Of a stretch of 64,000 bases of DNA, positions 33,570 through 48,148 are shown piece after piece (position 1 is the stretch's first letter; every line of letters begins with the position of its first letter). The notes under the pieces were generated by a model. It did not search any database. It was not told the DNA's origin and was given only the letters and a program-made list of their open reading frames with translations. A program made the position numbers and the translations under genes. The DNA is from Nitrospira sp. (GTDB lineage Bacteria > Nitrospirota > Nitrospiria > Nitrospirales > Nitrospiraceae), in assembly GCA_016873495.1 (NCBI GenBank), contig VGXC01000006.1, forward strand, positions 1 through 64,000, read 5' to 3'.

Positions 33570-33637
33570 AGAGGTACCATACCAAACTTCGTTTGAGCCG
33601 GTCGCTTCGATCAAACGCGACCGGAGAGGCACCTTTC
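33570..33637. repeat. Two-hairpin repeat core, copy A
   Basis: A 68-bp unit with a small hairpin (AAAC-TTC-GTTT) and a second one (CCGGTCGC with GCGACCGG, loop of 11 nt). It is about 84 percent identical to the core of the larger copy at 37512-37581, with compensatory changes in both stems. Confidence 0.75.
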
Positions 33638-33690
33638 CATCGACTGACTCGGCTACGAACACCGTAAGTGGTGTCGCGCAACGCGACGCG

Positions 33691-34303: not shown

Positions 34304-35821
34304 TCAGAGGCCCCGTTCGACCATCGCCTCTATCGCCGTCAGGTCCAGATGCTTGGCCATAAAATCGGCGAGCCGGTCGATCTGTTCATCCAGGGCCATC
34401 CCAGACTGCACCGGCAGGGCAGCCCAGCCTCGAACCTCACGGAGCCCGTTGAGAAAGACCCGTCGAAAGGCCACCGCATCGAAGAGACCGTGGACGTAGG
34501 TCCCGAGCACAAGGCCGTCCTCCGAGCTGGCTCCTTCCGGCCTCAGGGCCGCCTCGCCCTCGGCCCGGACTTCCAGCCAGGGGACGGCTCCTGCGTCCAA
34601 ACTGGTGCGGCCCATGTGTACTTCATAGCCTTCCACCGGGCAGCCACTCGCCGGGTGACGTCCACTCACCCCCACCGTAACCTTGTCCCGAGCAAAACTG
34701 GTCGTCACAGGCAACAGCCCCAGGCCTTCAAGCTCGCCCTCCGACGATTCGACCAAGTCCGGATCGAGAATCCGCTTGCCCAACAGTTGAAACCCTCCGC
34801 AGAGTCCTACTATTTTCCCGCCTGCGGCCAGCACCTGCCGGGCGACCAGATGGAGCTTCCGGTCCTTCACGAAACGTAGCGCTGCGGCCGTATTCTTGGT
34901 GCCGGGAAAGATCAACGCATCGAGCGGTTCTGTGATCGGCCCGACGACCCGGACCAGGCGAACATCCGGCTCGCAGGCCAGCGCGTCGAAGTCGGTGAAG
35001 TTCGAGATGGCCGGCAGGTCCACGACGCCGATCGTCAAAAACTCGTGAAGCGTGAAAGGTGAACCATGCAGCGAGCGAGAGCAAGAGGACTGGTCCTCCC
35101 ATCCCAGCGAGTCTTCCTGCGGCACCTGAAGATCGTGCCAATGGGGCACCACACCCAGGCATGGGATCTCGCACCGGGTTTCCACCATCTTCACGCCTGG
35201 CGCCAACAGGTCCGCGTCGCCGCGAAACTTGTTGATCAGAAATCCTTTGACATAAGCGCGTTCCTCAGGCTCGAGCAGAGCCAGCGTGCCCACCAGAGCC
35301 GCAAAGACCCCGCCCCGATCGATGTCGCCCGCCAAGATGACCGGCGCCCGCGCCTCCCGTGCCATAGCCATATTCACAATGTCTCGGTCACGCAGATTGA
35401 TTTCGGCCGGGCTGCCCGCTCCTTCAAGTATGACCAGGTCGAATTCCCCCGCCAACCGGGCCAAGGCGTCGCGCACGGCCGGCCAGTGGTCGCGCTTGAT
35501 GCGCCCGAAATCGGAGGCTTCCAACTGCCCGGCCACGTGCCCATTCACCACCAACTGGGCACTCCGCTCGCCGGAAGGCTTGATCAGCACGGGATTGAAA
35601 TCCGTCCTGGGAGCCAACCGGCAAGCCGCCGCTTGCACCGCTTGGGCGCGCCCGATTTCTCTTCCATCCGGCGTGACGAAGGAATTGTTGGACATGTTCT
35701 GCGCTTTGAAGGGCGCAACTTTAACGCCACGCCGCGCGAACAATCGGCAGAGAGCCGTCACGAGTACGGACTTGCCCACGTGGGACGCAGTGCCCTGGAC
35801 CATGAGCGTTTTTGCCGCCAT
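34304..35821 (-). CDS. cobQ: Cobyric acid synthase CobQ
   Basis: A 505-residue amidotransferase that amidates side chains b, d, e and g of adenosylcobyrinic acid a,c-diamide. The N-terminal ATP-binding part starts MVQGTASHVGKSVLV, and the class I-like glutaminase part has GLCGGFQLLG with the active Cys and the HMGRT/GTYVHGLF His region. The linker (about residues 250-265, RSLHGSPFTLHEF) is encoded by a short 7-nt array at 35045-35063, in frame. The upstream neighbour is the adenosyltransferase. Confidence 0.94.
   Translation of the reverse strand: MAAKTLMVQGTASHVGKSVLVTALCRLFARRGVKVAPFKAQNMSNNSFVTPDGREIGRAQAVQAAACRLAPRTDFNPVLIKPSGERSAQLVVNGHVAGQLEASDFGRIKRDHWPAVRDALARLAGEFDLVILEGAGSPAEINLRDRDIVNMAMAREARAPVILAGDIDRGGVFAALVGTLALLEPEERAYVKGFLINKFRGDADLLAPGVKMVETRCEIPCLGVVPHWHDLQVPQEDSLGWEDQSSCSRSLHGSPFTLHEFLTIGVVDLPAISNFTDFDALACEPDVRLVRVVGPITEPLDALIFPGTKNTAAALRFVKDRKLHLVARQVLAAGGKIVGLCGGFQLLGKRILDPDLVESSEGELEGLGLLPVTTSFARDKVTVGVSGRHPASGCPVEGYEVHMGRTSLDAGAVPWLEVRAEGEAALRPEGASSEDGLVLGTYVHGLFDAVAFRRVFLNGLREVRGWAALPVQSGMALDEQIDRLADFMAKHLDLTAIEAMVERGL
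35045..35063. repeat. 7-nt array inside cobQ (in frame)
   Basis: Units GTGAAGC, GTGAAAG, GTGAAC on the plus strand, translated on the minus strand as part of the linker between the two CobQ domains. Confidence 0.65.
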
Positions 35822-36505: not shown

Positions 36506-38245
<1,740 letters not shown>

Positions 38246-38249
<4 letters not shown>

Positions 38250-39700
38250 GACGCCACCCCCTTCCCCTCCGCGCCCTGCGTGCGCCAGGCCCTGGCGGAT
38301 GCCACCAGCGATCGCGCCACAGCCGGCTGGCTGGAAAAGTGAAGATGGGCATAGAGGGCCACCGTGTTGCCCCGCACCAGCCCGTCCGGAGATCGGGGCT
38401 GTTCCTTCGCATCCGCCACGGAACAGGCATAGTCGAGCGCCCCCCTGGAGACGAGCGAGGAATAGTGAAACTCATGCCCCCGGGCCTTGAGGCCAGGCCG
38501 GCCGATCACGCAAGGCTTCGCGAGCTCGATTTCACGATAGCCCAGGGTCAGCCCAGGCTTGCACATCACGGCTTCGGCCGGAAACAGGCCGACCATCTCG
38601 TGGGCCCGCCCGTCGAAGTCGCGGATGGCCTGGGTCAGGTACATCATGCCGCCGCATTCGGCGTAGATCGTGCCGCCTCGCTCGGCAAAGTCCCGAATTG
38701 CCAGGCGCATGGAATTGTTCCCTGCCAACGCCTCGCCATACAACTCCGGATAGCCCCCGCCAAGATAAAGCAGGTCCACATCAGGCAAATTCTGATCCTT
38801 GATCGGAGAAAACCGAATCAACTCGGCGCCCTCCGTCTCCAACAGCTCCAAGTTCTCCTGGTAGTAAAAACAAAACGCCGCGTCGTAGGCAACTCCGATG
38901 CGCACCGGCTTGAACGCTGAACGCTGAACGCTGAATGATGAACGGGAAGATCCTTCCGTTCCATGCGCAAGTAATTCATCATTCATCATTCCGCATTCAA
39001 CATTGAGGTCGCCGGCCGTCCGCGCCAGGGCTTCCACCTTGTCCAAGTCCACCGTCTCGGCGGCAGCCCGTCCCAGCTTGTCATAGAGATCCGTTGAGCC
39101 CTGTTCGATCGCGGTCCGTAGGCCCAGATGCCGGTCGCCGATCGTGAGGCTTGAGTCCGGCCGCAAATAGCCCACGACCGATACCTTGGTCTCCGCCTCA
39201 ACCGCTTCCTTAAGCAGCTGAAAATGGCCCTCGCTGCCGATCCGGTTGAACAGAACGCCGGCCACCTTCAGGGACGGATCGAACTTGGCATAGCCGCTGA
39301 CCATCGCCGCCGCCGAGCGCGCCATGGCGCTCCCGTCAATGACGAGGAGAACCGGAGCCCCCAACAACTTAGCCATCTCGGCCGTGCTGCCGACCTCGTT
39401 GACCGGCGAGCTGCCGTCGAAAAGCCCCATCATGCCCTCGATAATCGAGATATCCGCACCGACCGCAGCCCGGCGAAAGATCTTCCGATTGATGTCGCCC
39501 GTCAACATCCAGCCGTCCAGATTATGCGAGGGCCGGCAGGTGGCAGCCGCATGGTGCCCCGGATCGATGTAATCAGGCCCAACCTTGAAGGGCTGGACCT
39601 TCCGGCCCCGCTGCCGCAAGGCGGCCAGCAGGGCCAGGGTCACGGTAGTCTTGCCGACATTGCTCTGCGTGCCGGCAATGACAAGGCGAGGTACTGTCAT
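38246..39700 (-). CDS. cobB: Cobyrinate a,c-diamide synthase CobB/CbiA
   Basis: A 484-residue glutamine-dependent amidotransferase acting on side chains a and c. The N-terminal P-loop-like start is AGTQSNVGKTTVTLALLAAL, and the C-terminal glutaminase has the active Cys in YAECGGMMYL. The linker between them (about residues 235-265, CGMMNDELLAHG and RSSFSVQRSAFKP) is encoded by the palindromic array at 38911-39006, in frame. Length is near the upper end for the family because of this insertion. Substrate is a late ring product, so ring genes must be elsewhere or the enzyme uses salvaged rings. Confidence 0.93.
38911..39006. repeat. 7-nt palindromic array inside cobB (in frame)
   Basis: Left arm TGAACGC three times, TGAATGA, TGAACGG; right arm ATTCATC, ATTCATC, ATTCCGC, ATTCAAC. 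Arms are complementary with about 28 nt between. It is fully translated with no stop on the minus strand. Confidence 0.8.
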
Positions 39701-41660: not shown

Positions 41661-41702
41661 AACCCACCTCCCCTTTGACTCGAAGGGTTGAGTGAACTAG
41701 CT

Positions 41703-41950
41703 CGGCAGCCGGGTTTCCTGACTTGCGGATCGTTGCGCTCCCGCGCCTTCCCATCTTCAAACCGTGATCTGTGATGTGTGCTGCGTGATGAGTCAGAGGA
41801 GCTTCTTGCTCGGCTCCGAACCCATCACTGATCACTCGTCACTCATCACCGTCTCTAAGACAGTGGCGTTTTGCGGGATTGCTCCTCGCTTACAGTGGCG
41901 GTACCGTGATGGCCTTGCACCATCTTCCCCGTTCTGCTTGCCTCTCCTCT
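41703..41950 (-). promoter_or_regulatory. Cobalamin riboswitch upstream of btuB
   Basis: Minus strand in order: GGGGAAGATGGTGCAAG, ACGGTACCGCCACTGTAA, a second GCCACTGT (B12 box region), GATGGGAAGGCGCGGG and AAGTCAGGAAACCCGGC. These match the conserved parts of the cobalamin (AdoCbl) aptamer. The variable arm between the last GCCACTGT and GGGAAGG holds the palindromic array at 41763-41850. No terminator is seen before btuB; AACCC just upstream can pair with GGGTT that overlaps the ATG, so control is probably at translation. Confidence 0.9.
41763..41850. repeat. 7-nt palindromic array in the variable arm of the btuB riboswitch
   Basis: Left GTGATCT, GTGATGT, GTGCTGC, GTGATGA; right CATCACT, GATCACT, CGTCACT, CATCACC. 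The two arms pair as one long stem with a GGAGC-type capped loop. Confidence 0.8.
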
Positions 41951-42080
41951 CGACCTATCCTCCAATTTTGCGTGCCCCCCATCTGCCTCAACGAGGAGTG
42001 GGCACATCTTCCTCGTCGTTCAAAAACGCACCTCATATATCGTCGTTCGTATCTCGTTGTTGGAAAAGCGCCCGTCTTTC

Positions 42081-42112
42081 TTCACGCTTCACGCTTCACG
42101 CTTCACGCTTCC
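42081..42112. repeat. Perfect 7-nt tandem array at the end of btuD
   Basis: CTTCACG repeated four times, placed so that the last codon and stop of btuD lie in it. Single arm. Confidence 0.75.
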
Positions 42113-45152: not shown

Positions 45153-45209
45153 GCACCCGCTTCTTCACCCTCACCCTTTCCCCAGCCCACGAGGGAAAGA
45201 CGGTCATGC

Positions 45210-45450
45210 TCCGGGGAGGTCTTCTGGCTTAGGGTTCGACTCTACTCCCCGCGCCTTCCCATCTTCAAACCGTGATCGGTGATGTGTGATGCGTGATGCG
45301 TCAGAGGAGTTTCTTGCTCAGCTCTGAACCGATCACAGATCACTCGTCACGCGTCACCGTCCTACCGACAGTGGCTTCCGCGGGTTTCGTCCCCATTACA
45401 GCGGCGGGACCGCGAGGGAGTTGCACCCTCTTCCCTTGACCCGGAGGTTA
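45210..45450 (-). promoter_or_regulatory. Cobalamin riboswitch upstream of btuFCD
   Basis: Minus strand in order: GGGAAGAGGGTGCAACTCCC, GCGGTCCCGCCGCTGTAA, GCCACTGTC (B12 box region), GATGGGAAGGCGCGGGG and AAGCCAGAAGACC. A clear cobalamin aptamer with all core pieces. The variable arm carries the palindromic array at 45271-45359. The expression platform is the terminator at 45116-45152, so AdoCbl should stop transcription of btuFCD. Confidence 0.93.
45271..45359. repeat. 7-nt palindromic array in the variable arm of the btuF riboswitch
   Basis: Left GTGATCG, GTGATGT, GTGATGC, GTGATGC; right GATCACA, GATCACT, CGTCACG, CGTCACC. The loop between the arms (TCAGAGGAG and TTGCTC) is nearly the same as in the btuB riboswitch. 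Confidence 0.8.
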
Positions 45451-45609
45451 TGGTTTGTGGGGCCCACTCTAGGGGAGGGCTCGGACTCCTGTCAAGGCCA
45501 ATTTCCAGCGCGTGCGCTTCGTCCGCCACTGCCGAACTGCCGTGCCTTCACTTACAACGGCCCCGCTCACCCCAGTCGTCTCTCCGCATCGCAAAAAATC
45601 GTGCGATCA

Positions 45610-45713: not shown

Positions 45714-47123
45714 ATGAAAAAGCCTTTCCTCCTCATCGTTCTCCTCGCGCTCCTTGTAATATTGCTCGATCTCGTGCGGAGCATATGGCTCGGCACCGGC
45801 GAGCCGCCGAGCGAGGCCTACAAGGCCTTACTGACGTCACCGCCACGGACCGCCTTAGATCCGAAGAGCAACGCGTATCTTCTCCTGTTGGGATTTTCGG
45901 CAAGCCCCACGGCCGACCCGGTGCACGTGGGCCACGACATGTGGCTGGAAGTGGAAAGCGATCGCGGGCATCGTCCCTTCGACTACGGCAAAGAGTCCCG
46001 GTCGGAGATGCGGATTGCGGAAGAGACACTGGAGACGCTGCGGGCCAAGGCCCCGGCGGGAGCGATCAACCAGCTCCGCGCTCTGGCCGATCCCGCCAAA
46101 AATCTGCTGCCTCCCCATGCCCTTCTGATCGACCGCTATCGTCAATGGGTGACGCTCCCGTTTGACGATTGGGGCTATGGCCACCCGGGAACCCCCAGAC
46201 TGGCGGATCTCTATGCCGCGCACCGGCTGTACTTAGTGGAAGCCTGGGCACAGGACACGTCAACCGCCCTTGACCGGCTGGGCAAAGATCTTGCGGCTTG
46301 GCGCGGGGTCCTGGCCAATGCAAAAACCCTGCATCTCAAGGTTTTTGCCGCCGCGATCGTGGATGAAGATGCGGCTCTCGTATCCGAAGCGCTCAATCTC
46401 CCCGACTTCGACGTGGCGCTCCTCCCGCGCTTGGACCCGTTGGTGCGCCCCCTGACGCCGACGGAACGATCCCTGCGCTGGCCCATCCAAAACGAATTCA
46501 TGGTCGGGGTCTCGCTCTTCGAACATCCGTTGACGAGCGCAGCGGCGCAGCTTCAGCCGGAATCGGACGCCCAGCAGCGCTGGACCGCCGCCCTGGCCGG
46601 TATGGCCGCCGACTCGTTTCAATCGGTCGAACAGCCCATCCCCGCCAACATGTTCTCCCGCTCCCCCATGCAGAGGCAACGGACGCTGAATATCTATGCC
46701 GCCTTTTGCGAAGCCACGATCAAAGCGGCCGATCAGCCGAACAGCCCATTTCCCAAACTGCTCGACATGGCTCGGCTGACCCACCGCCGGATTCTGGATC
46801 ACTTCGTGAATCCGATCGACAATTTCTTCGCTTCCGTGCCGGAGCCGGCCTGGGCTCCCTTTGCGGACCGGCTGTTGCGCACCGACGCGCGGCTCAAGCT
46901 GACCGCCCTGCACGCCAGATTGCACCGGCCGGGACGGGATCTTCCGATGGCCTCCCGCATCGTCCAAGCCGGGTCTGCATTCTACGATCCGTTCTCCGGC
47001 TTCCCCATGCTCTGGTCCGCCGCATCGGACAAGCTCTACAGTGTAGGGGAAAACCGGGGCGACGACGGCGGCGACGAGCAGCGAGACATCCCAATTGTCA
47101 TCCTCCCGGCCCAGTCCAGGTAG
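45714..47123 (+). CDS. Membrane-anchored protein of unknown family
   Basis: A 469-residue protein with one N-terminal membrane helix (residues about 4-25, LLIVLLALLVILLDLV) and a large outside domain rich in Ala, Leu, Asp and Pro. I see no cofactor site, Cys motif or repeat. Many helices are predicted by the pattern of Leu and Ala. No recognisable family. It is read plus while both neighbours are on the minus strand, so it is a single gene. Confidence 0.7.
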   Translation: MKKPFLLIVLLALLVILLDLVRSIWLGTGEPPSEAYKALLTSPPRTALDPKSNAYLLLLGFSASPTADPVHVGHDMWLEVESDRGHRPFDYGKESRSEMRIAEETLETLRAKAPAGAINQLRALADPAKNLLPPHALLIDRYRQWVTLPFDDWGYGHPGTPRLADLYAAHRLYLVEAWAQDTSTALDRLGKDLAAWRGVLANAKTLHLKVFAAAIVDEDAALVSEALNLPDFDVALLPRLDPLVRPLTPTERSLRWPIQNEFMVGVSLFEHPLTSAAAQLQPESDAQQRWTAALAGMAADSFQSVEQPIPANMFSRSPMQRQRTLNIYAAFCEATIKAADQPNSPFPKLLDMARLTHRRILDHFVNPIDNFFASVPEPAWAPFADRLLRTDARLKLTALHARLHRPGRDLPMASRIVQAGSAFYDPFSGFPMLWSAASDKLYSVGENRGDDGGDEQRDIPIVILPAQSR

Positions 47124-47917: not shown

Positions 47918-48012
47918 GCTCCTCCCTGCAGAGGCCTTCACACTAGCAGTCGCGCTGCCATCAGGCAACTGTTGCCGCATGGATTCAGCGAAATCTTACC
48001 TCAAGACCCCAC

Positions 48013-48134
48013 AGGATGGTCAAACAGGCAGGCCAGCGAGGCCGCAGGAAGCGAGGTCCCCGAGGCGTACTGAAAAAGTACGTTGCGGGGTTCGAGCGAC
48101 CGAGAACAAAGCTGGATGCCTGTTTCAACATCCT
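48013..48134. mobile_element. Palindromic element C (MITE-like, 122 bp)
   Basis: Terminal inverted repeats of 18 nt, 16 of 18 paired (left AGGATGGTCAAACAGGCA). The arms contain CCAGCGAGGCCGCAGGAAGC and TTCGAGCGACCGAGAACAAA, shared with element B, and the centre is a perfect GTACT-GAAAA-AGTAC hairpin. No coding capacity. Confidence 0.75.
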
Positions 48135-48148
48135 GCTATAGTCGCCCC

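Follow-up and report, generated by a model that had tools for sequence, protein, structure and literature searches.

A segment of cobB that is translated in the interdomain linker of CobB is probably one copy of a group of dispersed short palindromic elements, which settle, change in size and are replaced at permissive sites, and which are translated where such sites lie in genes. The segment is located in a 64-kb stretch of DNA (the window) from a genome referred to as G000, and three congeners (G001, G002 and G003) were compared with it.

Position and structure of the cobB array

The features of cobB, in positions of the window, are as follows.

38246..39700, minus strand: cobB, cobyrinic acid a,c-diamide synthase, 484 aa (NF002204, E = 1e-153; ORF)
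39146..39685, minus strand: CbiA ATPase domain, CobB residues 6-185 (PF01656, E = 3.8e-20)
38327..38902, minus strand: GATase_3 glutaminase domain, CobB residues 267-458 (PF07685, E = 4.6e-42)
38911..39006, no strand assigned: palindromic heptad array, translated as CobB residues 232-263 (repeat, alignment and shuffle tests)
38911..38945, plus strand: left arm of the array, TGAACGC three times, TGAATGA and TGAACGG; the minus strand reads stop-free SSFSVQRSAF
38946..38973, no strand assigned: non-repeated core of the array, common to G001 and absent from G003
38974..39004, minus strand: right arm of the array, TGAANNN heptads on the coding strand
38990..38992, minus strand: codon GGA (Gly237), in the slot where a phase-0 heptad would give an in-frame TGA stop

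The coordinates at which the earlier note had placed the array, between the ATPase and glutaminase domains, were confirmed by these assignments, and the ORF and the alignment showed that the array is translated without a stop and that both quoted peptides are correct. Tandem Repeats Finder reported period 7 at 38911-38944 (TGAACGC) and at 38974-39004 (ATTCATC). The left arm consists of TGAANNN units and the right arm of NNNTTCA units, the arms being 37 nt long with a complementarity of 76%. The period-7 score of the array was 21 at best and 37 as the sum of two arms, as against maxima of 15 and 19 in 20,000 dinucleotide shuffles. The RNA of the coding strand was calculated to fold with -39.9 kcal/mol (z = -3.6 against shuffles).

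An AlphaFold2 model of CobB built with 31 CobB sequences, one locus with a stop having been left out of the protein alignment, had a mean pLDDT of 89.7, and values below 50 were found at residues 235-261 and the last five residues and nowhere else. The array is thus predicted by the model to coincide with a disordered interdomain linker that has no fixed structure. When a solved CobB structure was sought by sequence with phmmer at a threshold of 0.001, no match was obtained.

CobB linkers of related species

The CobB of G001 (85% identical) carries the same array as that of G000, and the CobB of G003 (82% identical) carries a different one. The CobB of G002 (78% identical) has a linker of 21 residues with no array, as compared with 36 residues in G000. 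The comparison of linker residues among related CobB proteins, which the earlier note had proposed as a check, therefore showed that they are not conserved even within the genus, and the array is not a fixed component inherited from the ancestral CobB. The net difference in length between the linkers of G000 and the array-free G002 is +45 nt, not 96 nt, which indicates that the array replaces a part of an older linker and is not a clean 96-nt addition. The note had also reasoned that the frame is kept because 96 nt is a multiple of three; the frame is indeed kept, but it is the net change in length, not the length of the array, that decides this.

A strong period-7 signal (score of at least 10) was observed in 16 of 110 CobB linkers (13 of them distinct) and in 4 of the 1737 windows taken from other parts of these genes, and this enrichment over the rest of the genes was essentially limited to period 7. 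On a CobB tree computed without the linker, the array trait needs 7 changes, at least 5 of which are forced by well-supported branches, and the changes are spread over Nitrospirota, a deltaproteobacterial group and Binatia-like rows. The heptads of the period-7 arrays in deltaproteobacterial cobB linkers are quite different. Period-7 arrays have been acquired by CobB linkers on repeated occasions and in several phyla. The cobB arrays of G005, G010, G014 and probably G003 share a register and may represent one old array, and the array of G000 and G001 belongs to another subfamily than these four, both as read by eye.

Between G000 and G001, dN/dS of cobB was 0.72 in the linker and 0.13-0.15 in the domains, the value of the linker being that expected for nearly neutral filler. 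An unusually slow divergence of the array DNA between these two genomes was also considered, and nothing was concluded from it because the low synonymous divergence of the linker is similarly low elsewhere in cobB. The cobB linkers of other Nitrospirota including N. moscoviensis (L015, L016 and L047) contain a different palindrome made of CCCTCCC-like stretches.

Arrays across the genome and turnover at shared sites

Well over 60 arrays are present in the genome, mostly in intergenic regions. The pattern TGAWNNNTGAWNNNTGAW had 100 matches in the genome versus 3 in the reversed control, and the pattern GGCNAGNGGCNAGNGGCNA had 25 versus 0. In the unselected 64-kb window, 17 segments of period 7 were found, and each other period from 4 to 12 accounted for 3 or fewer. 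The 94 sites in the genome stretches examined comprised 70 intergenic sites, 15 that overlap a gene end and 9 within genes; a home-made caller supplied the gene boundaries for this tally, and Pfam domains were used to check the cases within genes. Where an array separates two co-directional genes, its median distance is 4 nt to the stop upstream and 16 nt to the start downstream. The heptads include TGAANNN, GTGATNN, RGCTGAN, GGCNAGN and others. Dozens of sites draw on a small number of subfamilies, and each of these occupies both arms of its arrays. The array pattern was counted in 61 related genomes, and the numbers were patchy, ranging from 0 to 168.

Over most of its length, the window is syntenic with G001, G002 and G003. 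A period-7 array is present in at least one of the four genomes at 15 sites; most of the shared sites differed in their heptads or were empty in one genome, and one orthologous tract had 4 perfect units in G000 and 10 in G002. The arms of an array share a subfamily but not the order of its heptads, since 581 matches in mirror order were counted and 589 ± 11 with permuted heptads. This lack of mirror order gives no sign of recent fold-back copying or of selection for exact pairing, and as current forces behind the palindrome both were rejected, since permuting the heptads of one arm leaves the matching unchanged. A search for known non-coding RNAs near other arrays in 40 stretches detected tRNAs only, none of which overlaps an array.

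Two further kinds of repeat were observed in the window. A dispersed asymmetric element with a CGTATCT-type part on the left and (CTTCACG)n on the right, 4 to 10 units, occurs at about 42005-42111 and also at L138, L143, L120 (G003) and L127 (G002). Pieces of a second dispersed repeat family, which match mutually and are unrelated to the heptad arrays, are located at 37449-37655, 47950-48135 and 33571-33638.

Arrays translated in other proteins

A paralogue of CobB encoded in the window carries heptads of its own in the same interdomain linker.

34304..35821, minus strand: CobQ-like paralogue, CbiA at residues 6-230 and GATase_3 at residues 263-449
35046..35063, no strand assigned: three TGAANNN heptads in the cobQ linker, in G000 only among the four congeners

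The CobQ heptads add 7 residues (21 nt) relative to G001-G003, where they are absent. MurG has an in-frame palindromic array between its two domains that is common to G000-G002. In the same linker of the G003 murG (L190), an apparent 8-nt repeat, GGGGACGC/GGGGACAC, was noticed by eye. A GT2 glycosyltransferase contains an in-frame array, in place of which array-free relatives have a loop of about 10 residues and other relatives have different arrays. In-frame arrays are also found in both linkers of an E2 acyltransferase and in a Methyltransf_28 protein, the latter array being absent in G002 and G003, with different arrays in other genera. CheA, an M28 peptidase, UreF and a HerA-like ATPase provided further in-frame cases, and most of the proteins with in-frame arrays have domains on both sides. 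The view that arrays enter genes and survive where protein structure tolerates them is thus supported by the CobQ, MurG, GT2, E2 and methyltransferase cases beyond cobB. Insertion is supported for cobB as well, with the caveat that cobB itself offers no clean empty site. An ACT-domain protein has a period-7 stretch of 29 nt (L181:1872-1900) that aligns without gaps to array-free relatives, and this absence of a length change fits local formation.

Arrays in cobalamin riboswitches

Two cobalamin riboswitches in the window contain arrays.

41691..41973, minus strand: cobalamin riboswitch 1 with an insert of about 99 nt in the variable-stem loop (RF00174, 86.5 bits)
41760..41849, no strand assigned: palindromic GTGATNN array within riboswitch 1, empty in G002
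45197..45459, minus strand: cobalamin riboswitch 2 with an insert of about 103 nt in the same loop (RF00174, 81.1 bits)
45268..45357, no strand assigned: palindromic GTGATNN array within riboswitch 2, 87% identical to the array of riboswitch 1

The inserts are the arrays, and they take up the apical loop of this stem. Both riboswitches are present in all four genomes and 7 of the 8 carry an array; the one without, in G002, is 185 nt long as compared with 239-283 nt for the others, and the model scores are similar. Inspection of this empty site by eye revealed no target-site duplication. The two arrays of G000 have a common core and are 87% identical, whereas the riboswitch bodies are 70-75% identical. 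This difference points to copying or gene conversion between the riboswitches. A 469-aa ORF with no Pfam match lies beside riboswitch 2 (45714-47123, plus strand).

Reading frame and stop codons

A perfect heptad array gives an identical cyclic 7-residue peptide in its three frames. Since 7 and 3 are coprime, all frames code for one 7-residue cycle, so that the sequence of the heptad and not the frame decides whether an array is tolerated. For the same reason, a TGA-type unit invariably puts a stop on one of its strands, and every inverted pair includes an arm of this kind. Units of the GGC- and CAG-type are mostly free of stops on both strands. Genic sites accounted for 6 of 14 arrays of the GGC-type (stop-free) and for 2 of 53 of the TGA-type (Fisher p = 7e-4). 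The codon-phase-0 unit of cobB arrays, at which TGA would be a stop, is TTA in G003, G010 and G014, GTA in G005, and GGA in G000 and, by eye, in G001. The TGA-type arm of the G000 cobB array was probably accepted because its phase-0 unit carries GGA in place of TGA and the linker lacks a fixed structure.

Origin of the arrays

On the reading that we prefer, an element of about 70-100 bp would have some 4-5 units from a single subfamily on one side of a short unique core and the same subfamily, inverted, on the other. Comparison of the species shows that such arrays establish themselves at permissive sites, lengthen or shorten by entire units and give way to arrays of other subfamilies. An array would be acceptable in any frame if its heptad is free of stops on the strand that is read and the net change in length is a multiple of three. 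The permissive sites are those directly downstream of stop codons, the apical loop in the stem of a riboswitch and, in proteins, surface loops or disordered linkers between domains. Presence and absence of arrays, turnover of subfamilies, change in unit number and avoidance of stops are shown. We infer that the cobB array arrived as a copied unit instead of arising by growth within the linker, and that slippage and conversion would then have reshaped it, gene conversion together with tandem slippage being the likeliest driver. Mobilisation of the REP/RAYT type was rejected, since PF01797, used to search for the Y1 (RAYT-type) transposase, matched nothing in G000 and, as a control, matched 5 of 14 named genomes. 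As for the features of MITEs, inverted arms are present, no target duplication was seen at the empty riboswitch site by eye, and the transposase search concerned the Y1 family only.

The main rival to copied entry is local growth, in which the array never moved; a chance seed in the linker would have expanded by slippage and the inverted arm would have arisen by template switching, the result being a 7-nt microsatellite in unconstrained sequence. The change from 4 to 10 units in the perfect tract of G000 and G002, the different heptads found in different species at one site and the indel-free stretch of the ACT-domain protein all agree with this explanation, as does the literature, in which an excess of heptamers has been ascribed to polymerase slippage (PMC4679880, PMC4692102). 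However, slippage alone makes no inverted second arm, and against local growth stand the recurrence of a few subfamilies over dozens of sites, each in both arms, and the non-repeated core shared by the two riboswitch arrays. We thus regard local growth as an unlikely origin of the cobB array, though one to be taken seriously, and some short indel-free stretches may arise in this way.

A further rival takes the array for a selected functional element of cobB, which might for instance bind a protein, pause translation as a hairpin or act as a regulatory structure in the RNA. A selected element of this kind would be in line with the folding of the mRNA, which is better than that of shuffles (z = -3.6), and there are proposals of the sort for other heptads: TAACTGA arrays as sites of a translational regulator (PMC4679880) and heptad arrays of Geobacter metallireducens as sites of a global regulator (PMC2700814). 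Nevertheless, the array is absent in G002 and most other CobB genes, heptads are not conserved between species at the same site, and exact pairing of the arms is not kept, so a selected function seems very improbable. Chance repetitiveness of an unconstrained linker, to which the weak constraint (dN/dS of 0.72) would be congenial, is virtually excluded and was already refuted by the shuffles, none of the 20,000 reaching the score of the array, and by the enrichment of linkers over the same genes at essentially period 7 alone. Copied entry followed by reshaping is retained as the probable origin. A bolder generalisation, that bacteria of several phyla carry self-spreading palindromic 7-nt arrays which the length of their unit turns into frame-independent coding elements, and which again and again give rise to disordered linker peptides in enzymes that are unrelated and to side stems in riboswitches, entire arrays being swapped between subfamilies at a given site by an undescribed copying mechanism, is put forward tentatively and is more doubtful than the reading of the cobB array.

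These arrays would represent a repeatedly observed route from non-coding repeats to protein sequence, in which the stop content of the heptad predicts which of them enter genes. Because the same loops repeatedly acquire arrays in related species, their origin, spread and structural cost are open to comparison and bench tests.

Comparison with known repeat systems

The closest precedent of the cobB array, by analogy, would be the Rickettsia palindromic elements (RPE), which are also known in Wolbachia and Methanocaldococcus jannaschii. RPE are ca. 100-150 bp long, occur in intergenic regions and in frame in non-structured segments of conserved genes, and at one locus different RPE groups can be found in different species (PMC3767692, PMC2996958). 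Like RPE, the arrays are short palindromic repeats in many copies (inverted arms; 100 versus 3 pattern matches), and they lie in frame inside conserved genes without destroying them (CobB, CobQ, MurG, GT2, E2 and others). Unlike RPE, they consist of tandem 7-nt units around a unique core, have many coexisting subfamilies, encode one cycle in all frames and have copies in riboswitch stems. As the relatives are Nitrospirota and not Rickettsiales, we do not file the arrays as RPE.

Heptad repeats have been described in Beggiatoaceae, Cyanobacteria, Geobacter, Xanthomonas and Nostoc (PMC4679880, PMC2700814, PMC4692102, PMC4476775), and a partial literature search found no report of translated heptad arrays in Nitrospirota. 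The TAACTGA heptamer repeats of marine Beggiatoaceae, Cyanobacteria and Bacteroidetes are mostly intergenic and place stops in three frames of one strand, and MacGregor suggested that they are tolerated between parts of modular proteins (PMC4679880). The arrays described here likewise have 7-nt tandem units and are mostly intergenic. However, TAACTGA repeats are direct and of one heptamer, whereas the arrays have several heptads in paired inverted arms and are present or absent in orthologous protein linkers. With heptads of TGAANNN, GTGATNN, RGCTGAN, GGCNAGN and other types, the arrays are not TAACTGA repeats; by their 7-nt tandem units and variable copy number (4 versus 10), they are heptanucleotide simple-sequence repeats.

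The heptanucleotide elements of Geobacter metallireducens are tandem, some are paired on opposite strands, and the GGGACCG family occurs also in genes; their heptads differ from those reported here, and they were read as regulator-binding sites, the part of that source available giving no comparison of genic copies between orthologues (PMC2700814). The arrays in riboswitch stems show that the same process also reshapes structured RNA. In this respect they resemble the P6b stem of the Nostoc tRNA-Leu intron, in which paired 7-nt repeats switch class repeatedly within the genus (PMC4476775); both are RNA side stems made of paired 7-nt repeats, the Nostoc case being a group I intron and not a riboswitch or a protein gene.
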